A stretch of DNA of 64,000 nt from Roseomonas sp. GTDB lineage: Bacteria; Pseudomonadota; Alphaproteobacteria; Acetobacterales; Acetobacteraceae. Under the pieces are notes generated by a model. The model had not been told where the DNA came from. It worked only from the letters and a program-made list of their open reading frames with translations, and ran no database searches. Below are positions 1 to 32,358 of this stretch, piece after piece. The DNA is taken from positions 496,001 to 560,000 of the forward strand of contig JAPSLO010000002.1 of assembly GCA_031180725.1 (NCBI GenBank), in the 5' to 3' direction. Each line of letters starts with the position of its first letter. Positions within the stretch are counted from its first letter, which is position 1. Position numbers and translations under genes: made by a program.

Positions 1-2631
<2,631 letters not shown>

Positions 2632-2665
2632 TCAGGGCCGCGCGGAAAGCCTGCGAACCGCCGGA

Positions 2666-6862
<4,197 letters not shown>

Positions 6863-21578: not shown

Positions 21579-21650
21579 GCCGGGTTAGCACAGCGGTAGT
21601 GCAGCGGTTTTGTAAACCGAAGGTCGGGGGTTCGAATCCCTCACCCGGCA
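21579..21650 (+). tRNA. tRNA-Thr (TGT anticodon)
   Basis: Plus-strand cloverleaf: acceptor GCCGGGT / ACCCGGC, D-arm TAGCACAGCGGTAGTGC, anticodon loop TTTGTAA (TGT), T-loop GGTTCGAAT. CCA is not encoded. It borders the accessory glycine-rich secretion locus and could have served as an integration site, though no integrase is visible. Confidence 0.93.
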
Positions 21651-22221: not shown

Positions 22222-24333
22222 ATGTCAGATGCAAAGACCTGCCTGCCCTGCGAGGACGACGCGCGCTACCCGATACACGGCGTCCGATCGAAGCGGAACG
22301 ACGCCGATCTGCTGTTCGGGCCGGAGGCGCTGATCGGGACAGAGGGCGAGGATACGAGCGGCGCCATCGGGGCGAGCGGCTTGGATGGTCTGGCGGGTCA
22401 AGCGGGCCAGGATCACCGGCCCGCCAACGCCGCAGGAGAAGGCCGCGGAAACGGCTCCAGGGGCGAGAGAGGCGGCCTGGGCGGTGACGGCGAAGACGCC
22501 ACCGGCGGTGATGGCGGGCCGGCCTTCGGCCTCCTCGTCAAGGGCGGCATCGAGATCCGCCGCAATGCCGATTCCATCACCTTCAGCGATGTCGTCGGTG
22601 GCGCCGGCGGCGATGGCACTGGCGGGAAAGGTGGCCAGGGTGGCGATGGCGGCGACGGCGGCGCCGGCGGCAGCGGCAATAACGGCGGCACGGCGACCGG
22701 CGACTTCGGCATCGGCGGCGGCAATGGCGGCCTCGGCGCCACCGGCGGTGACGGCGGCAATGGCGGCGAAGGCATTGGCGGAGCCGGCGGCGCGGCTTAT
22801 GGCCACAAGATCTGCGACGAGATCGACATCTACATCAACGGCGTCCACGGCGTTATCTCCCTCGGCGACGTCACCGGCGGCGCGGGTGGCGACGGCACGG
22901 GCGGGCGAGGCGGCCGCGGCGGCAATGGTGGCGACGGCGGCGACGGCGGCAACCTGAACTACGGCATCCCGGCCGGCCTTGTCCTGGCCGCAGACGTCTT
23001 CGGCGCCGGCGGCGGCTATGGCGGCGATGGCGGGCATGGCGGCTATGGCGGCCAGGGCGGCATCGGCCGGGGCGGCGACGGCGGCGACGCCTGGGGTCAC
23101 CTCGTCCACGGAGAGGTGCGCGTGGCCGGCAATCGCGGCCAGATCTACTTCGGCGACGTGACCGGTGGCGCCGGTGGCGATGGCTTCGGCGGGACCGGCG
23201 GCCGCGGCGGCAATGGCGGCCGGGGCGGCGACGGTGGCAATGACAATCTCGGCGTGGACGCCTACGGCCTGGTCGGTGAAGGCGATGCAACCCTCATCGG
23301 CGTTGGCGGTGGCAACGGCGGCGATGGCGGTAACAGCATGCGAGGCGGAGCGGGCGGCGACGGCTTCGGTGGCGCCGGCGGCGACGCGTATGGCCATGTC
23401 TTCCATGCCGAGGTGCTCATCGGCTGGAACAAGGGGTTGATCGACTTCGGCCAGATCCTCGGCGGCGCCGGCGGCAGCGGCTTCGGCGGACGCGGTGGGA
23501 ATGGCGGCACGGGCGGCAACGGTGGCAACGGCGGCGATGGGAATGACGGCATTGTCGCGTTCGGCACCGCGACCCCGGACGGCAACATCGAAGCCTATGG
23601 CGGCGGAAGTGGCGGTTTCGGTGGCAAGGGCCGTAGCGGCGGCGACGGCGGCGATGGCTACGGTGGCAACGGCGGCGATGCCTACGGGCACAGCTTCTTC
23701 GACGATGTCGTCATCACCGGCAACCACGGCGAAGTGCATTTCGGCGACGTGACCGGCGGCGCCGGGGGTAACGGCTATGGCGGCGTCGGCGGCGCTGGCG
23801 GCACCGGTGGCCGCGGCGGGGATGGCGGCGATGGCAATGTTGGCCTCGTCACCGGCACGGGCGGCGCGGACCTCTTCGCCTCCGCAACCGCGATCGCTGC
23901 CGCCGCGCGGGGGCAGCGCGGCGATCACGGGGACGGCGCGGCAGGTCTGGGCACCGGGCACACATTCCACCAGGGCTTCGACATCGAAGCCAACGGGGGC
24001 ACCATCCTGTTCGATGATGCCGTGCTCTCCATGTGCGTCGGCATCTACGACAACGGCGGCGACATCATCTTCGACGACGTCCTGAACTGGGGCGAGATCG
24101 ACATCTTCGGCAACACCGGCCTGGTGAGCTTCGATGTCGTGGATGACCGCGGCGACATCGACATCGAGCGCAACCACGGCGAGCTGCTGTTCGGTGACCT
24201 TCTGGGTGAGAGCGACGTCGACATCATCGACAACTACGGCGTGATCCGCTTCGCCGACGCCGCGGACGCCGCGCTGGTCGAAATCGTCAACAACTACGGG
24301 CAGATCTACTTCGGTGACGTACTCTGGGTCTGA
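22222..24333 (+). CDS. Giant glycine-rich modular protein, probably secreted
   Basis: A 703-residue protein of no family I recognise. It has an N-terminal region with a CLPC pair (1-100) and no Sec signal peptide. Six beta-rung motifs of the form hxhxxNxGxhxFGDVTGGAGG follow at about 108, 200, 298, 398, 495 and 586. The first five are each followed by 60-80 residues of GGxGGx repeats ending in DAYGH-like linkers. A C-terminal stretch (586-703) has about six uninterrupted rungs (for example GDIDIERNHGELLFGDLLGE). The pattern suggests a parallel beta-helix with polyglycine-II extensions. The C-terminus FGDVLWV (acidic then hydrophobic) resembles type I secretion signals. ATG 22222 follows GGGAGAGATACGA. 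The tracts share sequence with the two small peptides downstream, implying one system. Confidence 0.85.
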   Translation: MSDAKTCLPCEDDARYPIHGVRSKRNDADLLFGPEALIGTEGEDTSGAIGASGLDGLAGQAGQDHRPANAAGEGRGNGSRGERGGLGGDGEDATGGDGGPAFGLLVKGGIEIRRNADSITFSDVVGGAGGDGTGGKGGQGGDGGDGGAGGSGNNGGTATGDFGIGGGNGGLGATGGDGGNGGEGIGGAGGAAYGHKICDEIDIYINGVHGVISLGDVTGGAGGDGTGGRGGRGGNGGDGGDGGNLNYGIPAGLVLAADVFGAGGGYGGDGGHGGYGGQGGIGRGGDGGDAWGHLVHGEVRVAGNRGQIYFGDVTGGAGGDGFGGTGGRGGNGGRGGDGGNDNLGVDAYGLVGEGDATLIGVGGGNGGDGGNSMRGGAGGDGFGGAGGDAYGHVFHAEVLIGWNKGLIDFGQILGGAGGSGFGGRGGNGGTGGNGGNGGDGNDGIVAFGTATPDGNIEAYGGGSGGFGGKGRSGGDGGDGYGGNGGDAYGHSFFDDVVITGNHGEVHFGDVTGGAGGNGYGGVGGAGGTGGRGGDGGDGNVGLVTGTGGADLFASATAIAAAARGQRGDHGDGAAGLGTGHTFHQGFDIEANGGTILFDDAVLSMCVGIYDNGGDIIFDDVLNWGEIDIFGNTGLVSFDVVDDRGDIDIERNHGELLFGDLLGESDVDIIDNYGVIRFADAADAALVEIVNNYGQIYFGDVLWV

Positions 24334-24363
24334 TCTGCCCTGAGCAGTTGCATCACCTTCGTG

Positions 24364-24399
24364 AACGGCCGGGGCGCACAGCCCCGGCCGTTTCTTTTT
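24364..24399 (+). terminator. Strong Rho-independent terminator
   Basis: AACGGCCGGGGC-GCACA-GCCCCGGCCGTT, a perfect 12-bp stem with a 5-nt loop, followed by TCTTTTTC. It lies 30 nt after the stop codon of the 703-residue protein and makes that gene a separate transcript from the peptide/exporter operon. Confidence 0.92.
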
Positions 24400-25023
24400 C
24401 GCCCAGCCAAAGAGTCTGATCCGCTAAGACACGCAATGGTTGTCTGTAAAGACACCTCCTCCACCCGATACCGACACGTCTGCGTGAAGCCTGCGGCACC
24501 CGGGGACGAATGCTTGACCGTGGACCGCCTCAGTCAATAAGCATTGTATACGACCGGAAAGAATGCGAAGACCCGCCTGAATGACCGAATGAATTCCGGC
24601 AGACTGATTCAACTATATCGCGAGCGGCATTGTTGCCGTCCGCCGGCAGCGCACCCGCTATCCAGGTCTTCTCGGCTTGGGCGCCAGAACTTCCTGCCGC
24701 TGTCGACGCGAAAAAAGGTGAGGAGGAGACTGTCATGTTGAACACGGCGCGGGACCCACCCCGCAGCGCCTGACATCCCCACGCGACGGATCTGCCGCCT
24801 GACGCGCCATACCGGTGACCCGCCGGCCAGAGCGCGAGTGATGACGCATGTCGTCATCGCCAGGCCTCCGCTCGCCAGACGAATGCGCGAGAAGCGCAAG
24901 TGATCGGCAGCCGGCCCGCAAGGGCTGATTGCCGCAGAGGTGTGGCGCGACTGCGCCGCACGATCGGGGGCAACCCCACCGCGCCCCGCGGCACGGGGCT
25001 TGGAGACTCCAAGGAAGATTGTG
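24400..25023 (+). promoter_or_regulatory. Long leader/promoter region of the peptide-exporter operon
   Basis: About 620 bp precede the first peptide gene. It contains a 12-codon ORF at 24735-24773 with an excellent ribosome binding site (GAGGAGGAGACTGTC before ATG). A dyad GATGACG-CATGT-CGTCATC lies at 24840-24858. No larger gene is supported; long minus-strand ORFs here are antisense to the glycine repeats. Role of the mini-ORF (leader peptide or decay remnant of a further peptide gene) is unknown. Confidence 0.45.
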
Positions 25024-25311
25024 ATGAGCATTACTGAACTGACCCATGACGAAATTGACGCCGTGACCGGCGGCCTGCGCATCCGCATCGTCGGCGTTGG
25101 CGGCGGCAATGGCGGCAATGGCGGCAATGGCGGCAACGGCGGCCGCGGCGGTGACGGTGTCGGCGCAGTCGCAGGCAACACCGACGGCTTCAACCTCGGC
25201 CAAGTCAATGTTGCCAAGGGCTTCGGCAAGGGTGGCGACGGCGGTGCGGGCGGCGGCGGTGGCGCTGGCGGAGCCGGCGGCGACAACAACGACGGCATCG
25301 ACGTGTTCTGA
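25024..25311 (+). CDS. Double-glycine-leader glycine-rich secreted peptide 1
   Basis: A 95-residue precursor. Residues 1-17, MSITELTHDEIDAVTGG, are a textbook double-glycine leader (LTxxEIDAVxGG) cut by C39-peptidase ABC exporters. The predicted mature 78 residues begin LRIRIVGVGGGNGGNGGNGG, continue with further GGx repeats, and end NNDGIDVF. No Cys is present, so this is not a disulfide or lanthipeptide-type bacteriocin. ATG 25024 has AAGGAAG upstream; the track's longer start is not used. It is followed after 53 bp by a paralogue, then by the HlyD and C39-ABC genes that presumably export it. Biological activity is unknown: bacteriocin, matrix or ice/surface-binding peptide are all possible. 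Confidence 0.9.
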   Translation: MSITELTHDEIDAVTGGLRIRIVGVGGGNGGNGGNGGNGGRGGDGVGAVAGNTDGFNLGQVNVAKGFGKGGDGGAGGGGGAGGAGGDNNDGIDVF

Positions 25312-25364
25312 CGGACTGTCCGGTGACCAAGCACCAGGACAGTGAACATTAGGGAGAGACGGAC

Positions 25365-25655
25365 ATGACCATCACCACTCTGACCGAACTCGAAATCGAC
25401 GCCGTGACCGGCGGCTGGGCGCGCATCCGCGTCGTCGGTGTAGGCGGCGGCAACGGCGGCAACGGCGGCAATGGCGGCAATGGCGGCCGCGGCGGTGACG
25501 GCTACGGTGCGATCGCCGGCAATTCCGGCGGCAAGAACGTGCTGCAGGCCAACTTCGCGGCCGGCGTTGGCGTCGGTGGCGACGGTGGCGCTGGCGGCCC
25601 GGGCGGCAACGGCGGCGCGGGCGGCAACGGCAACGACGGTATCGACATCGCCTGA
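25365..25655 (+). CDS. Double-glycine-leader glycine-rich secreted peptide 2
   Basis: A 96-residue paralogue of the preceding peptide. The leader MTITTLTELEIDAVTGG differs at a few positions but keeps EIDAVTGG. The mature part begins WARIRVVGVGGGNGGNGGNG and ends GNGNDGIDIA. The RIR[IV]VGVGGGNGG...GGRGGDG block and the C-terminal NDGID[VI] are the conserved parts; the middle (about 45-70) has diverged. ATG 25365 follows AGGGAGAGACGGAC. It lies 65 bp before the HlyD gene in the same orientation, so one transcript probably makes both substrates and their exporter. Confidence 0.9.
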   Translation: MTITTLTELEIDAVTGGWARIRVVGVGGGNGGNGGNGGNGGRGGDGYGAIAGNSGGKNVLQANFAAGVGVGGDGGAGGPGGNGGAGGNGNDGIDIA

Positions 25656-25720
25656 GCCAGACGGCGGCGCGGCGGTTCCCCGCCGCGCCGTCACGCCTCG
25701 CCTAACCCGGAGCCAGCTCG

Positions 25721-26980
25721 ATGAGCGTGCCGACGCGCCAGCTCTTCCGCCAGGAGGTCATCGAGTTCCAGCAGCAGGACCGGCAATGGGGCCGCGTCGT
25801 GCCGTTGCAGCCCTTGCCGATGCGGCTGATGGTCTGGTTCGTCACCGCCTGCGTGGTTGCCGTGGTGGCCTTCCTCTTCCTCGCGGAGTACGCCCGCAAG
25901 GAGACGGTGAACGGCTTTGTGTCGCCCACCTCGGGCACCGCACGCGTTGTCGCCGCGCGGCCTGGCATCATCAGTGCCGTACATGTCCGCCAGGGCGACA
26001 TCGTCGCCGAAGGCCAGCCCCTCCTCACCGTCAGTGCCACGCAGGTCTCGGCCAGCGGAGAGGACGTGGACGCCGCAATCCTGGGAACGCTCTCCCGCCA
26101 ACGCGACTTCCTCGAGCGTCAGCTCGCCGCCGAGGAGCGCCGCGCCGCAACCGAGGAGGATCGGCTGCGCGCGCAGATGCGCGGGCTCTCCAGCGAGATC
26201 ACCCTCCTCGAGACGCAGCTCAGGCTGCAGCGCGAACGCATCGCCGTGGTGGAGCGCCTGGTCGCCTCCGCGGCGCGGCTCGCCCCACAAGGCTGGGTCA
26301 GCGAGATCGAGCACCGGCGGCGCGAGGAGGCGCTGCTTGAGCAGAGGCTCGGTCTCAGCTCGCTCGATCAGCAGCTTGTTGCACGCCGCAGCGCGCTCGA
26401 CGAGGCGCGTTTCGCCCTCGAGCAACTCCCGGCCGTCACGGCGGAGCGGCTGCAGGGCCTCCGCAACCAGCTCGCCGAGAACGACCAGCGCCGCGCGGAG
26501 GTGGACGGCCGGCGCGCCTACATCCTGCGTGCCCCTGTCGCCGGCCGTGTCGCGCTGCTGCATGCCGTACCCGGCCAGCCCGCCGACACGCGCCATGCCC
26601 AGGTGCAGATCGTGCCCGAAAACGACACGCTGCAGGTCGAGCTGCTGATCCCCGCGCGCGCCATCGGCTTCGTCGCCGAGGGGCAGGAGGTGCGGATTCT
26701 CTACGACGCCTTTCCATACCAGCATTTTGGCGCCCATCGGGGGCGCATCATGCGCGTATCCCAGACCATGCTGGCCGCCTCGGAAACGGCAGGCCCGCTC
26801 ACCCTGCCGGGTCCGGCCTACCGCGCCGTGGCGGCGATCGAGCGGCCCTGGATCGAGGCGCATGGCAGCCGCGTGCCGCTGCAGCCCGACATGCTGCTAC
26901 GGGCCGACATCATCCTGGAAAGGCGTACCCTGATGGACTGGATCCTGGAGCCGCTTCGTAGCGCGCGGCTTGCCGGATGA
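25721..26980 (+). CDS. HlyD-family periplasmic adaptor (CvaA/RaxA-like)
   Basis: Membrane-fusion protein of a type I secretion system, 419 residues. A cytoplasmic N-terminus (LFRQEVIEFQQQDRQWGRVV) precedes one membrane helix (about 34-56, MRLMVWFVTACVVAVVAFLF). The first lipoyl half follows (GTARVVAARPGIISAVHVRQ), then a long coiled coil (about 120-265), the second lipoyl half (ILRAPVAGRVALLHAVPGQP) and a beta-barrel domain. The layout matches the CvaA/RaxA group that partners C39-peptidase ABC exporters. It overlaps the ABC gene by ATGA. No TolC-type outer-membrane gene is in the window, so a shared one must be used. Confidence 0.95.
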   Translation: MSVPTRQLFRQEVIEFQQQDRQWGRVVPLQPLPMRLMVWFVTACVVAVVAFLFLAEYARKETVNGFVSPTSGTARVVAARPGIISAVHVRQGDIVAEGQPLLTVSATQVSASGEDVDAAILGTLSRQRDFLERQLAAEERRAATEEDRLRAQMRGLSSEITLLETQLRLQRERIAVVERLVASAARLAPQGWVSEIEHRRREEALLEQRLGLSSLDQQLVARRSALDEARFALEQLPAVTAERLQGLRNQLAENDQRRAEVDGRRAYILRAPVAGRVALLHAVPGQPADTRHAQVQIVPENDTLQVELLIPARAIGFVAEGQEVRILYDAFPYQHFGAHRGRIMRVSQTMLAASETAGPLTLPGPAYRAVAAIERPWIEAHGSRVPLQPDMLLRADIILERRTLMDWILEPLRSARLAG

Positions 26981-29067
26981 TCGAGGGGCTGCTCGACTTC
27001 CGCGGTCGGCGGCGCCTGCCGAACGTGCTGCAGACCGAGGCCGCGGAATGCGGTCTCGCCTGCCTCGCGATGGTCGCCGCATTTCACGGCTTCCGCACCG
27101 ACCTCAACACGCTCCGCAGGCGCCACCCGGTGTCGCTGAAAGGCGTAACGCTTAGGGGCCTGATGCAGATCGCGGGGCAGATGCAGCTCGCCTGCCGCCC
27201 CCTGCGCTTCGATCTGGACTCGATCGGGCAATTGCGGATACCCGCGATCCTGCATTGGGACATGAACCATTTCGTGGTGCTGCGCTCTGTAAGCGCAAAG
27301 GGAATCGTCGTGCACGACCCGGCGGTCGGCGTGCGCCGATACTCCCTCGCCGAGGCCTCTCGCCACCTGACCGGTGTCGCGCTCGAGCTCTCCCCTGCGG
27401 AGGGGTTCACGGCACGCGACGAGCGGCAACGCCTCCCCCTGCGGCTGTTCTTCGGTCAGTTGAGCGGGCTCGGCACGCCGCTCGCCCAGGTGTTCGTCCT
27501 CTCGGCGATCCTCGAGGTGCTGGTGATCGCCGCCCCCTTCTACATGCAGCTCACCGTGGACGAGGTGGTGGCGCGCGGCGACAACGACCTCATGCTCGCG
27601 CTTGCACTCGGCTTCGGGCTGCTGACCGCGATCACCGTCGCCACGGTTGCGCTGCGTGGCCACATTGCGCTCGTGCTGCAGAACGCGCTGCATTTCCAAA
27701 TCGGCGCGCGGCTGTTCCACCACCTGCTGCGCCTGCCCATGGCCTATTTCGAGAAGCGGCATATCGGGGACGTGCTCTCGCGCTTCAACTCGATCGAGCC
27801 GATCCGCAGCGTGATGGCCGAGGGCATGATCCTGGCCGCCATCGACGGGATCATGGCGCTGGCGACGCTCACCATGATCTTCGTCTACGGCCCCAGCCTT
27901 GCCGCCATCGTGCTGGTGGCGCTGGCGCTCTATCTGCTTCTGCGGATTGTGATGTACCACCGGTTCCGCGAACTCAACGAGCAGGCCATCCAGGCGCAGG
28001 CGCTTGAGAGCTCGAACTTCATCGAGACCGCGCGCGCCATGCAGACCATCAAGCTGTTCAACCGCGAAGGCGACCGCGAGGGGCAGTGGCTGAACCGCCA
28101 CGCCGATACGGTGAACGCCCAGGTGCGGCTCGGCCGTGCGGGCATCCTGTTCCGCACGGCCAACATGGCGCTCTTCGGGTTCGAGAACATCGTCACCGTC
28201 TACCTGGCGGCGCAGCTGGTGCTGGCCAACGACATGACGGTGGGCATGGTCTTCGCCTTCATGGCCTATAAGGCGAACTTCATAGCCAAGTCCACGGCGC
28301 TGGTAGAGAAGGCGCTGGAGTTCCGCCTGCTCGAGCTTCACCTTGAGCGGCTGGCCGACATCGCGCTGACCGCGCGCGAGCCGGGCCATGACCGGCCGAC
28401 CCAGGGCGCCACGACGATCCGCGGCGGACTCGAGCTGCGCAATGTCAGCTTCCGCTACGCGGAGACGGAGCGCTTCGTGCTGCAGGACGTGAACCTGAAG
28501 GTGGAGCCGGGGCAGTTCGTCAACGTCATGGGCCCGTCGGGTGGCGGCAAGACGACGCTGATGAAGATCATGCTCGGCCTGCTGGAGCCGACCAGCGGAG
28601 AGGTGTTGGTGGACGGCATCCCGCTGCGCGCGATCGGCGTGCGCGCCTATCGCGAGCAGGTCGCCGCGGTGATGCAGGACGATCAGCTGCTGTCCGGCTC
28701 CATCGCGGACAACATCTCCTTCTTCGACCCGCATTTCAACGAGGAGCGCATGATCATGTGCGCGCGCATGGCCGGCGTGCATGATGAGATCGTGGCCATG
28801 CCCATGGGCTACAACAGCCTGGTCGGCGACATGGGCAGTTCGCTCTCCGGTGGGCAGAAGCAGCGCGTGCTGCTGGCGCGCGCGCTCTACAAGTCGCCCA
28901 AGATCCTCTTTCTCGACGAGGGTACCGCGCATCTCGACCTGGAGAGCGAGCGCGCGATCAACGAGCGGCTGCGCCGTCTCGCCATCACCCGCATCAGCAT
29001 CGCCCATCGTCCGCAGATGATGAGCGGCGCGGATGCCGTGCTGCGCATCGGCGCGCGGCCGGCCTGA
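26977..29067 (+). CDS. C39-peptidase ABC exporter (CvaB/RaxB-like)
   Basis: Bifunctional exporter of 696 residues that cleaves double-glycine leaders and transports the mature peptide. The N-terminal C39 peptidase (about 10-130) keeps all catalytic residues: Cys25 in ECGLACLAMVAAFHG, His98 in DMNHFVVL, Asp114 in VHDPAVG. A six-helix membrane domain follows (about 165-440). The nucleotide-binding domain has Walker A GPSGGGKTT, signature LSGGQKQR, Walker B ILFLDEGTAHLD and the H-loop ISIAHRP. DEGTAHLD in place of the common DEATSALD is typical of this subfamily. It is the last gene of the peptide operon. Substrates are very probably the two adjacent peptides; the 703-residue protein may also use it. 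Confidence 0.96.
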   Translation: MIEGLLDFRGRRRLPNVLQTEAAECGLACLAMVAAFHGFRTDLNTLRRRHPVSLKGVTLRGLMQIAGQMQLACRPLRFDLDSIGQLRIPAILHWDMNHFVVLRSVSAKGIVVHDPAVGVRRYSLAEASRHLTGVALELSPAEGFTARDERQRLPLRLFFGQLSGLGTPLAQVFVLSAILEVLVIAAPFYMQLTVDEVVARGDNDLMLALALGFGLLTAITVATVALRGHIALVLQNALHFQIGARLFHHLLRLPMAYFEKRHIGDVLSRFNSIEPIRSVMAEGMILAAIDGIMALATLTMIFVYGPSLAAIVLVALALYLLLRIVMYHRFRELNEQAIQAQALESSNFIETARAMQTIKLFNREGDREGQWLNRHADTVNAQVRLGRAGILFRTANMALFGFENIVTVYLAAQLVLANDMTVGMVFAFMAYKANFIAKSTALVEKALEFRLLELHLERLADIALTAREPGHDRPTQGATTIRGGLELRNVSFRYAETERFVLQDVNLKVEPGQFVNVMGPSGGGKTTLMKIMLGLLEPTSGEVLVDGIPLRAIGVRAYREQVAAVMQDDQLLSGSIADNISFFDPHFNEERMIMCARMAGVHDEIVAMPMGYNSLVGDMGSSLSGGQKQRVLLARALYKSPKILFLDEGTAHLDLESERAINERLRRLAITRISIAHRPQMMSGADAVLRIGARPA

Positions 29068-29113: not shown

Positions 29114-30133
29114 TTATCGCCCGGCGCCGTTCCCGCCGAGGCGCGCCGCGACCTCCTGCGCCGCTCCGAAGCGGGTCCAGCCAGGCACCTGCGCGGCCAG
29201 GTTCACCTCCAGCCACTTGGCGTGGCGCGGTGGGCGCTGGAACTCCTCGAAGCGGGTGAAGAAGGCCTCCACGAAGCGCGACACCTTGCGGTGCCGTTCC
29301 GTGCCCGGTGCCCAGGCATAGACTGCCATCACCGCGCCGACCGCCAGCGTCTCCACCGCTGTTCCGGCTGGAATCAGGTTCGGATAGCGCTCAGCCCGCA
29401 GCCGCGAGGGCAGGTAGGTGTCGAGCAGCGCAGGCGTCAGCGGCACCTCGAGGAAACGCAGCCCGCTGTCCGGCGGGATGGTGGCGAAGATGCGGGCCGG
29501 CTGCCCGGCGACGAAGGCCATGGCCGCGATCTCGCCGCGGCGCAGCCGCTCCAGCGCGAGGTCTTGCGGGTCGTTCGTGGTCTCCACGCGCAGCCCGAGC
29601 CCTTCGAAGACGAGGGAGGCGGTCATTGCCGTGCCGCTCGCCCGCAGGTCCACGTTCACGCGCTGCCCGGCCAGGTCCTCGACGCGGGCGATGCCGGGGC
29701 GGGCCAGCAGGTGGAACTCCTCGTCGTAGAGCTTGGCGATGTAGTGGACCAGTTGCGTCACGCCCGGGAACAGGCGCTGGCGCTGCGCGAAGGCCAGCAC
29801 GTCGGATTGCACGATGCCGATGTCCACGCCGCGCAGGTACATGATGTCGGCGATGTTCTGCACCGAGCCGCGTCCGATGATCGGCAGCACGCGCAGCTCG
29901 TCCCCGCTGTCCAGAACGGAGGCGAGGTCGGCGGCGATGCGCACATAGGTGCCGTCCACGCCGCCCGAGATCACGCCGACGGTGCCGGCATTCGCCCGCT
30001 GCGCCATCGCGCTGAGGGTGGCGGCCGAGGGCATGCCCCCGCCCTGCGCCAGGGCGCGCGATGCACCGGTGACCAGCGCCGCGGCCCCGGCGCCCAGGAT
30101 CAGGCCCCGGCGGCCGTGCTCCGATCGCGTCAT
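29114..30133 (-). CDS. TAXI-family TRAP transporter solute-binding protein
   Basis: Periplasmic binding protein of 339 residues. A Tat-like signal (HGRRGLILGAGAAALVTGAS, cleaved near RALAQ) precedes the TAXI fold, with NAGTVGVISGGVDGTYVRIA, IADIMYLRGVDIGIVQSDVL, VNVDLRASGTAMTASLVFEG and AVGAVMAVYAW. ATG 30133 was chosen because it overlaps the upstream gene's stop (ATGA) and begins right before the signal peptide. The DctQM-like membrane subunits that TAXI proteins normally serve are absent here. Coupling to a repeat-rich anchored protein is unusual. Confidence 0.9.
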   Translation of the reverse strand: MTRSEHGRRGLILGAGAAALVTGASRALAQGGGMPSAATLSAMAQRANAGTVGVISGGVDGTYVRIAADLASVLDSGDELRVLPIIGRGSVQNIADIMYLRGVDIGIVQSDVLAFAQRQRLFPGVTQLVHYIAKLYDEEFHLLARPGIARVEDLAGQRVNVDLRASGTAMTASLVFEGLGLRVETTNDPQDLALERLRRGEIAAMAFVAGQPARIFATIPPDSGLRFLEVPLTPALLDTYLPSRLRAERYPNLIPAGTAVETLAVGAVMAVYAWAPGTERHRKVSRFVEAFFTRFEEFQRPPRHAKWLEVNLAAQVPGWTRFGAAQEVAARLGGNGAGR

Positions 30134-32358
30134 CGTCCTCCTCCCGGCAGTGCACGCAGCAGCGGCTCCGCCTCCTGCTCGCCGAGCGCCTGGGCGCGCC
30201 GGTACCAAGCTGCGGCGGTCTCGGGGTCGGGGCGGAGCCCGCGGGCACCGAGCTGCGCCATGGCCGCCGGGTCATAGGTGCGCCCGAGGGCAAGTGCTGC
30301 CGCACCGCTACCCGCCGCGGCAGCGCGCTCGTAGAGCAGCCGCGCCGCCGAGATGTCCCCGATCGCCAGCATCTGGTCGCCGCGGCGCGTCAACGCCGCA
30401 ATCATCGCGGGCGCCATCTGCACGGTCGGCGGCGCGGCGCGCGTGGCAGCCGGCGTGGACTGCCTGGCGTCTGGCGGCGGGGCCATGGGGCGGGGCAAGG
30501 CGGCGGCGAGGCTTCCGGCGGGCGGCGCGGCGGGCGGCCGCGGTAGCACGACCGGCGGTGGAGGCAGCCGCATCGCCTCGATGACGCGTGGCGGCTCCGC
30601 GTCGGGTGGACGCGGCAGTGCCGGGGGGAGCCGAGGTCCGGCGGGGACTTCCGCCGCTGTCCCTGGCGGATCACCGACAGAAGTCGGCGCGGCCGGCGCC
30701 GGTTCGGCGCGGAGCGTCCGGGGCTCAGGACTGGCGACGGCCTCGGTTTCGGCCAGCGGCGCCTCTACCGGGGCGGCCGGCACCGGTTCGGCGCGGAGCG
30801 TCCGGGGCTCAGGACTGGCGACGGCCTCGGCTTCGGCCAGCGGCGCCTCTACCGGGGCGGCCGGCATCGGTTCGGCGCGGAGCGTCCAGGGCTCCGGCGC
30901 GGCGACGGCCTCGGTTTCGGCCAGCGGCGCCTCTACCGGGGCGGCCGGCATCGGTTCGGCGCGGAGCGTCCAAGGCTCAGGACCGGCGACGGCCTCGGCT
31001 TCGGGCAGCGGCGCCTCTACCGGGGCGGCCGGCATCGGTTCGGCGCGGAGCGTCCAAGGCTCAGGACCGGCGACGGCCTCGGCTTCGGGCAGCGGCACCT
31101 CCGCGGCGGCGGTCGGTGTCGGTTCCGTGCGGAGTGTCCAGGGCTCCGGCGCGGCGACGGCCTCGGTTTCGGGCAGCGGCATCTCCACTGCGGCGGCCGG
31201 CATCGGTTCGGCGCGGAGCGTCCAGGGCTCCGGCGCGGCGACGGCCTCGGTTTCGGGCAGCGGCATCTCCACTGCGGCGGCCGGTGTCGGTTCCGTGCGG
31301 AGCGTCCAGGGCTCGGAACCAGCAAAGGTATCAGGCTCGGGCGGCGGGGTATCGGCAGGGGGGGACTCGGCCCGGGCGACGGCCGAACGGGCAACCTCCG
31401 GGAGTTCCCTGTCCATCGTCACGTCCGGCTCGGACACAATCATGCCGAGGCCGATTACGGCCGGCGGCGCAGGCGGTGCCGCGGCGTCTTCGTCCTTCAG
31501 GCCGGGGTCGAGCCGCGGGGGCGCCGCGGCAAGCTTGAGGTCGCGCTCGCCCGGCATCGGTCCCGCGGCCAGGGGTGGGCCTGCCCGGTCCGGGAACGCG
31601 GCGGCGAGGCGCGGGGCCGCTTCGGCTGGCCCATTGGGAGCGGTTGGCGGAGCACCCGGCCGTTGCCCCGATCCGACAGTGACAGCAAGCAGTGCGGCAG
31701 CGCCGACACCTACACCGGCCAGGACTCCGGCCCAGGTTCCGGTCCGGATGGGCTGCCGCTCCGGGCGCGCGGCATCGCTCGGAGGCGCCGCCGGGGCGGC
31801 AGGGCACCTGGCAAGGTCCAGCAGCGCAGTCACTACCCGCCGCATCCAGTGCTCGTCGGACACGCGCCGGGCTGCCGGCCACTGCCCCAGCGCGTGCTCC
31901 AGCGCGCGTCCGAGGCGGTCCGCCCGGTTCGGGGCAAGACGCAGATGGAGGATCGGAATCGCCTCGCGCTCTGCCGCATCGAGGGCAGACTTCAGGCAGA
32001 GGCGGAGGCGTTCCTCGGCGTCGGGGGTCGCCGAGGGTTCGAATTCGAGCAGCACGATCCCGAAACCCGGATGCAGCAGCACGGCAGAGATGTGGGCCAG
32101 CTTCTGGCCCGGGCGCACCGGCGGCAGGATGCAGTCCGGGATCACCGTCCAGCCGGCGGGCAGCCCGGCCGCGGCCCGCAGCAGCGGATCCGCGAAGGTT
32201 GCATAGCCGAGCCTGGTCAGCATTTCCGGGTCGGCTGGCGCCAGGGTGCGACGCTGTGTCTCAGGGCCCATGCGAAGCTGCCCTCCCAATAGGACGTCCC
32301 AGTGGGGCGCCCCGCCCGCCCTGCTAGACTGCGGGAACTGTGCGCCAATCGTCGCCAT
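30130..32358 (-). CDS. Membrane-anchored repeat protein with C-terminal Sel1/TPR-like domain
   Basis: A 742-residue protein of unrecognised family. An N-terminal soluble domain (about 15-195; LAHISAVLLHPGFGIVLLEF is its most structured-looking segment) is followed by one membrane helix (about 210-232, TWAGVLAGVGVGAAALLAVT). Then comes a Pro/Ala/Glu-rich spacer containing seven full and one partial 28-residue repeats (EPWTLRAEPMPAAPVEAPLP type). The C-terminus has a Sel1-like pair (QMLAIGDISAARLLYERAAA, and DPETAAAWYRRAQALGEQEA). The repeats probably form an extended periplasmic spacer. No clear ribosome binding site precedes ATG 32358; Met30 (32271) is an alternative. It is coupled to the TAXI gene by ATGA. 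Confidence 0.8.
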   Translation of the reverse strand: MATIGAQFPQSSRAGGAPHWDVLLGGQLRMGPETQRRTLAPADPEMLTRLGYATFADPLLRAAAGLPAGWTVIPDCILPPVRPGQKLAHISAVLLHPGFGIVLLEFEPSATPDAEERLRLCLKSALDAAEREAIPILHLRLAPNRADRLGRALEHALGQWPAARRVSDEHWMRRVVTALLDLARCPAAPAAPPSDAARPERQPIRTGTWAGVLAGVGVGAAALLAVTVGSGQRPGAPPTAPNGPAEAAPRLAAAFPDRAGPPLAAGPMPGERDLKLAAAPPRLDPGLKDEDAAAPPAPPAVIGLGMIVSEPDVTMDRELPEVARSAVARAESPPADTPPPEPDTFAGSEPWTLRTEPTPAAAVEMPLPETEAVAAPEPWTLRAEPMPAAAVEMPLPETEAVAAPEPWTLRTEPTPTAAAEVPLPEAEAVAGPEPWTLRAEPMPAAPVEAPLPEAEAVAGPEPWTLRAEPMPAAPVEAPLAETEAVAAPEPWTLRAEPMPAAPVEAPLAEAEAVASPEPRTLRAEPVPAAPVEAPLAETEAVASPEPRTLRAEPAPAAPTSVGDPPGTAAEVPAGPRLPPALPRPPDAEPPRVIEAMRLPPPPVVLPRPPAAPPAGSLAAALPRPMAPPPDARQSTPAATRAAPPTVQMAPAMIAALTRRGDQMLAIGDISAARLLYERAAAAGSGAAALALGRTYDPAAMAQLGARGLRPDPETAAAWYRRAQALGEQEAEPLLRALPGGGR
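30690..31314 (-). repeat. 84-bp tandem repeat array inside the anchored protein gene
   Basis: Seven full units of exactly 84 bp (from 31314 down to 30727) and a partial eighth encode the 28-residue repeat EPWTLRxEPxPxAxxEx. Units differ by a handful of substitutions and keep frame, so copy number can change without frameshift. Neighbouring units are more alike than distant ones. Confidence 0.92.

Follow-up and report, generated by a model that had tools for sequence, protein, structure and literature searches.

Which products does a leader-cleaving ABC exporter release when the peptides encoded beside it carry runs of Gly-Gly-X (GGX) triplets, and how are these peptides related to a large glycine-rich protein encoded next to them? 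The question is raised by a locus of Roseomonas sp. (Acetobacteraceae) within a stretch of 64,000 nucleotides, here called the window (positions 496,001 to 560,000 of contig JAPSLO010000002.1, assembly GCA_031180725.1). The original prediction read five genes of this locus as one dedicated secretion system whose small and large products are probably partners.

Organisation of the locus

All five genes are present at 22222-29067 of the window in the same orientation. The large gene (22222-24333, plus strand, with the ATG at 22222 and the stop codon ending at 24333) encodes a protein of 703 aa with no Pfam or NCBIfam family. It is followed by two small genes, 25024-25311 (+) and 25365-25655 (+), encoding peptides of 95 and 96 aa with the double-glycine leaders MSITELTHDEIDAVTGG and MTITTLTELEIDAVTGG, respectively; Shine-Dalgarno-like stretches are seen 5' of both genes (AAGGAAG for peptide 1, GGGAGAG for peptide 2). 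The last two genes, overlapping by four bases, encode an HlyD-family periplasmic adaptor (25721-26980 (+), 419 aa, Pfam HlyD_3) and a C39-peptidase ABC exporter (26977-29067 (+), 696 aa). The codon changes look like those of protein-coding genes, with dN/dS of 0.38-0.50 in five of the seven comparisons; the two comparisons with the greatest divergence gave 0.68 and 0.75. A search for structured RNAs produced none besides tRNA.

Downstream of the large gene lies a terminator-like hairpin (24363-24393 (+)) of 13 pairs, 10 of them G-C, with a T-rich tail and a match to the consensus; the frequency of terminator-like hairpins in the region is not above that in shuffled sequences. In one relative the large gene lies on the opposite strand. 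Given this and the 13-pair hairpin of its own, the large gene probably forms a transcription unit separate from the genes for the peptides and the exporter.

The exporter gene is followed by a gene for a TAXI-type solute-binding protein (29114-30142 (-), Pfam NMT1_3), which separates it from a sixth gene (30130-32358 (-), 742 aa). The latter is an accessory candidate, as in most related loci a relative of it is found next to the exporter, irrespective of the peptide type. Its protein consists of an N-terminal domain of about 150 aa (PxGWxxxxDCxL..LLHPxxGIxLLE), an apparent transmembrane segment, a long Pro/Ala-rich linker with tandem repeats of the EPWTLRAEPMPAAPVEAPLPEAEAVAG type, and a C-terminal Sel1/TPR-like domain. 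The sixth gene was also considered as specific for such loci, and this was dropped: the family of its N-terminal domain is present in 65 of 398 Acetobacteraceae genomes, and only a subfamily adjoins the exporter. In two Belnapia loci (L006, L116), homologues of the TAXI-type protein with 56-57% identity are encoded close to the large gene. Thus the view of the five genes as one system stands as far as composition and orientation are concerned, but the large gene is probably a transcription unit of its own, and the sixth gene also travels with the exporter.

A tRNA-Thr gene (21579-21650) lies directly upstream of the locus. Synteny with several genus mates reaches its 3' end and stops there, which suggests a variable insertion site. 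However, neither a second copy of the tRNA end nor a flanking repeat was found in the window, and thus an island is only suspected.

The exporter and its glycine-rich neighbours

The exporter is a single chain with transmembrane and ABC ATPase domains (Pfam Peptidase_C39 2.5e-30, ABC_membrane 4.8e-38, ABC_tran 8.9e-31) and is accompanied by the HlyD-type adaptor. Its residues 15-688 align with PCAT1 (4ry2), and C25, H98 and D114 occupy the catalytic positions of the latter, in agreement with the predicted intact Cys-His-Asp triad. This is an ordinary member of its family and the sole C39 gene found in the genome. TolC-type genes, including one for a type I TolC family protein, and a gene for a PrtD-type type I exporter are present elsewhere in the genome.

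The leaders of the two peptides, LTHDEIDAVTGG (peptide 1) and LTELEIDAVTGG (peptide 2), share the form LTxxEIDAVTGG, and the predicted mature peptides start with LRIRIVGV and WARIRVVGV. From the protein families and the conserved leaders we infer that the leaders are cleaved and the peptides exported by the adjacent C39 machine, as originally proposed. Each peptide has two runs of six GGX triplets flanking a non-glycine loop; there are 12 triplets per peptide in runs of at least three, compared to 0.6 in shuffled sequences. The peptides match no Pfam or NCBIfam family, and a structure model was uninformative (pLDDT 41). No further peptides with this leader were found in the genome; a candidate third one (L143) was rejected, as it is read antisense to another gene. 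When a peptide itself served as the query, nothing was found in a collection of genome contigs, and 300 genomes of the family yielded only its own genome, the exporter being a far better bait.

The leader and the exporter are of the class II microcin type, and loci with two or three paralogous peptides are common among class II microcin systems. One possibility is that the peptides are antimicrobial, the large protein being an unrelated or decoy surface protein. Some cores from sister loci, such as L123, resemble bacteriocin models weakly, though below the cut-off. However, the cores are hydrophilic and near neutral in charge, the sequences have no long hydrophobic stretch, and no small membrane protein that might confer immunity was common to the loci in a heuristic ORF survey. 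A bacteriocin system thus appears unlikely, and the comparison of the peptides with the large protein, described below, bears on it as well.

The large protein is 34% glycine and has a net charge of -61. Following a disordered N-terminus (approximately residues 1-77, low model confidence), it consists of five units of about 98 aa, each comprising GGX arms, a variable loop, and a beta rung GDAYGH..N.G.IxFGDVTGG. The GDAYGH-type anchors are at positions 99, approximately 190, 288, 387 and 485, the unit spacing being 98-99 aa. The C-terminal region (approximately 576-703) is a candidate beta-solenoid with rungs of about 20 aa (34% identity at shift 20), ending in ..NNYGQIYFGDVLWV. Thus the glycine-rich beta-rung protein of 703 residues is present as described in the original prediction. 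It contains 45 GGX triplets in runs of at least three, versus 2.9 in shuffled sequences. The AlphaFold2 model, based on an alignment of four sequences, has pLDDT 67.6 and pTM 0.62; pLDDT is mostly 80-93 in the glycine arms and about 85 in the solenoid, and falls below 50 in the loops 155-166, 247-263, 344-362, 443-461 and 520-575. The best Foldseek match of the model is the springtail antifreeze protein 7jjv, a polyproline-II bundle, which is not significant (E 8.6e-3, probability 0.16). Antifreeze protein 2pne is also among the matches, and the next group is formed by beta-helical adhesins, none of them significant. No match to the large protein was found among sequences of solved structures or in the plasmid collection, nor to its model among viral structure models at E of at most 0.001. 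Taken together, the triplets, the model and the non-significant match to 7jjv make a polyglycine-II/beta-solenoid fold moderately supported.

Since 7jjv is the best structural match and 2pne is also on the list, the product might bind ice or protect from desiccation by a polyglycine-II bundle, as in the snow-flea and springtail antifreeze proteins. In such proteins a flat ice face is formed by small or Thr residues at the X positions of the triplets. Here these positions are mainly occupied by Asp, Asn and Arg, the structural match is below significance, and no solved structure is matched by sequence; we consider this role very unlikely.

On inspection, a Sec-like N-terminus and a double-glycine leader are both absent from the large protein. 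RTX nonapeptide Pfam matches are absent both from it and from its relatives in L011 and the Microvirga locus L015. The C-terminal end is conserved among the relatives. In Microvirga pudoricolor (L015, 148-1806 (-)) a large glycine-rich protein of a different architecture, encoded beside a glycine-type peptide and the exporter, has an RTX-like end, which we take to resemble that of an RTX type I substrate. This end suggests the type I route for the large partner. Considering also its acidic make-up and conserved end, the large protein would most likely be exported by a type I system, its C-terminal signal remaining uncleaved.

Distribution of the loci and pairing of the products

With the exporter as a bait, 80 loci were retrieved. 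Loci with the exporter at 66-76% identity were found in Belnapia, Paracraurococcus, metagenome-assembled Acetobacteraceae and M. pudoricolor. Most of them encode double-glycine peptides with leaders L[ST]DAELDAV[TSN]G[GA] and glycine-rich cores, and many have a large glycine-rich protein nearby. Hence both the leader and the glycine core recur near C39 exporters in other genomes, which goes beyond chance. Among 398 genomes of the family, 17 carry an exporter of this subfamily; they represent 9 of 102 genera, and the 12 other listed genomes of the same genus as our locus all lack it. The large protein was found in seven of the 398 genomes, all of them among the 17 with the exporter (hypergeometric P 6.5e-11); a sample of 384 other genomes from across the class contained no copy. 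In all seven, the large gene is on the same contig as the exporter and within 18 kb of it, with order and strand varying between the loci. A second copy of the large gene was observed in G204 on contig C120 (L120, 1262-3637), where the 6 kb retrieved contain no exporter; this copy matches one of the G204 peptides better than the copy linked to the exporter does (score 218 vs 177).

The presence of the large protein follows the type of the peptides. It is encoded in seven of the eight exporter genomes with glycine-type peptides (G000, G036, G186, G204, G209, G272, G276) and in none of the six with other double-glycine cores (G017, G143, G166, G254, G279, G299; Fisher 0.005). In the eighth genome with glycine-type peptides, the fragmented metagenome-assembled G161, the large protein was not detected. 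In several further metagenome-assembled genomes (G108, G163) the contigs stop short of the peptide genes, and for G259 none of the reading frames was recognised as a peptide of this kind. In the exporter tree, constructed by a quick method, eight of the nine glycine-type loci fall into one supported clade of 13. The same clade includes L117 (G166), which has a His/Pro-rich core and whose genome lacks the large protein.

The sister exporters are accompanied by peptides with double-glycine or Ala-Gly leaders and very different cores, several of them Asn/Val-rich and repetitive (L007 1880-2821; L117 760-972; L123 293-574; L124 5865-6167; L125 6601-6996; L086 7424-7618). These may be a second class of secreted structural products; the core from L007 is weakly FapA-like (E 0.007, below the cut-off). 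The Bradyrhizobium plasmid p195_1 (L086), whose exporter is related to that of our locus, encodes a 1253-aa protein with long tandem repeats of the SNDVVGAIAPVEAA type, annotated as hypothetical (1452-5213 (-)), and a type I permease is also encoded beside the exporter. The original prediction named homologous exporters lacking such glycine-type peptides as a refuting observation. In one sense these do occur, with other double-glycine peptides instead. However, as the genomes of these sister exporters also lack the large protein, the partnership is strengthened by them rather than refuted.

The two products are also linked by their sequences. Alignments of peptide cores with large proteins, scored against composition-preserving shuffles, gave Z of about 9 for the shared sequence. 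When cores were compared with the large proteins of eight genomes, the partner from the same genome ranked first in seven cases and second in the remaining one. Of the 40,320 pairings, no other one reaches the observed total score; as the eight loci are related, this does not represent eight independent events, and both the permutation and the co-occurrence figures describe an association. The arm lengths of the peptide and the large protein match roughly in the window. This does not extend to a general match, which was dropped, as across genomes the correlation is rho 0.28 (P 0.50).

It might be argued that the large protein acts on its own as a surface adhesin and that its likeness to the peptides is convergence of glycine-rich sequences sharing the composition of a genome. 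Indeed, GGX repeats are simple, composition differs between genomes, the arm lengths are uncorrelated, and the large gene differs in order and strand between loci. However, pairs from the same genome retain Z of 7-11 over shuffles that preserve composition, besides their first rank in seven of eight cases; the matches extend beyond GGX into non-repetitive, non-glycine loops in the Belnapia group, G186 and G204; and all seven genomes with the large protein have the exporter. Convergence is therefore improbable as an explanation. If the peptides were toxins, one would expect neither their match to repeats of the large protein encoded in the same genome nor the tracking of the peptide type by that protein.

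RaxA/RaxB-type machines export RaxX-like signalling peptides, and the peptides considered here could conceivably belong to this kind, acting in signalling or host interaction with the large protein as a surface receptor or store. The mature products of about 78 residues are, however, mostly repeats with no short non-glycine motif conserved across the loci, and a heuristic survey recognised neither a sulfotransferase nor a sensor kinase common to the loci, making this highly improbable. Given the module match within genomes, the co-occurrence, and the tracking of the peptide type, a partnership of the small proteins with the large one is very probable, as originally suggested.

A candidate extracellular assembly and known systems

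We propose an extracellular assembly of two size classes, in which released peptides build onto the modular large protein to form a surface coat or a biofilm-matrix fibre; we regard the chances of this model as about even. By homology, the C39 domain would cut both precursors after LTxxEIDAVTGG, and the ABC-HlyD machine, together with a TolC-type channel encoded elsewhere, would release mature peptides of 78 and 79 residues. The 703-aa protein would be exported as well, likely by a type I system recognising an uncleaved C-terminal signal. Each peptide would represent one module, two GGX arms around a loop, of the kind that the large protein from that genome contains several times. The peptides may dock onto the polyglycine-II stack of the large protein or extend it, and the beta-solenoid end may anchor or cap the assembly. 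By analogy with EbfG1-4, the assembly perhaps has a matrix or coat role; bacteriocin, ice-binding and signalling roles are less likely.

The pair of peptide and large-protein products appears to be undescribed: in the open-access papers searched, we found no description of a family of C39-exported peptides in which each member equals one module of a large protein encoded alongside. Peptides of C39 exporters are usually annotated as bacteriocins; the present model, if correct, would add to them a structural, non-antibiotic class of products. Few natural proteins are known to form polyglycine-II assemblies, and the locus would offer a secreted Gly-Gly-X material that has a matched partner and is encoded in a compact set of genes. 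Such a bacterial pair, with its small subunit and its large modular protein, should be easy to express and test, and may be of interest for biofilm biology and silk-like materials.

The original prediction described known C39 exporters as handling bacteriocins or RaxX-like peptides. This list is incomplete: PteB of Synechococcus exports EbfG1-4, enabling biofilm formation; EbfG1-3 form amyloid, and EbfG4 is found on the cell surface and in the matrix (PMC4997328, PMC9981879). The PteB-EbfG system of Synechococcus elongatus PCC 7942 offers the nearest described logic, with a C39-transporter gene beside several genes for paralogous small double-glycine proteins and with matrix-forming products that are extracellular or surface-located. 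However, the EbfG cores form amyloid and are not described as glycine-rich GGX polymers, and no large protein with a matching repeated module, as present here, has been described for them. PCAT1 (4ry2) and exporters of the CvaB/microcin V type are similar in the alignment of the exporter with the retained triad and, as in Gram-negative systems, in the HlyD adaptor, whereas here the substrates are glycine-rich modules with a large partner, and no immunity gene was seen.

Two other systems are similar in the product. In the PE_PGRS proteins of mycobacteria, runs of Gly-Gly-X triplets are proposed to pack as polyglycine-II sandwiches at the cell surface (PMC9436101). Such runs are present here too, but there is no PE domain by Pfam, the phylum is different, and beta rungs alternate with glycine arms in a protein coupled to a C39 exporter and small peptides. 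The polyproline-II bundles of springtail and snow flea (7jjv, 2pne), resembling the model of the large protein below significance, are animal proteins with no sequence match to it, whereas here the candidate bundle is part of a larger bacterial protein.

Finally, in curli (CsgA/CsgB) a small secreted subunit shares its repeat with a second protein, which can nucleate or anchor it. The locus considered here likewise encodes a small subunit, predicted to be secreted, and a second protein with a common repeat, a candidate nucleator or anchor. The secretion route and the fold are different from those of curli, and polymerisation here is a proposal by analogy. The proposed assembly would thus combine the curli-like logic of a nucleator and a small subunit with an export route like that of PteB-EbfG and a product of the polyglycine-II type. 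More tentatively, the product may be a hitherto undescribed surface polymer in which polyglycine-II hairpin peptides released by the C39 exporter add onto the repeated polyglycine-II modules of a secreted nucleator, the two having coevolved as a specific pair in each bacterium, a reading we consider possible though doubtful. Were it true, the building principle of curli would be realised with polyglycine-II instead of cross-beta structure.
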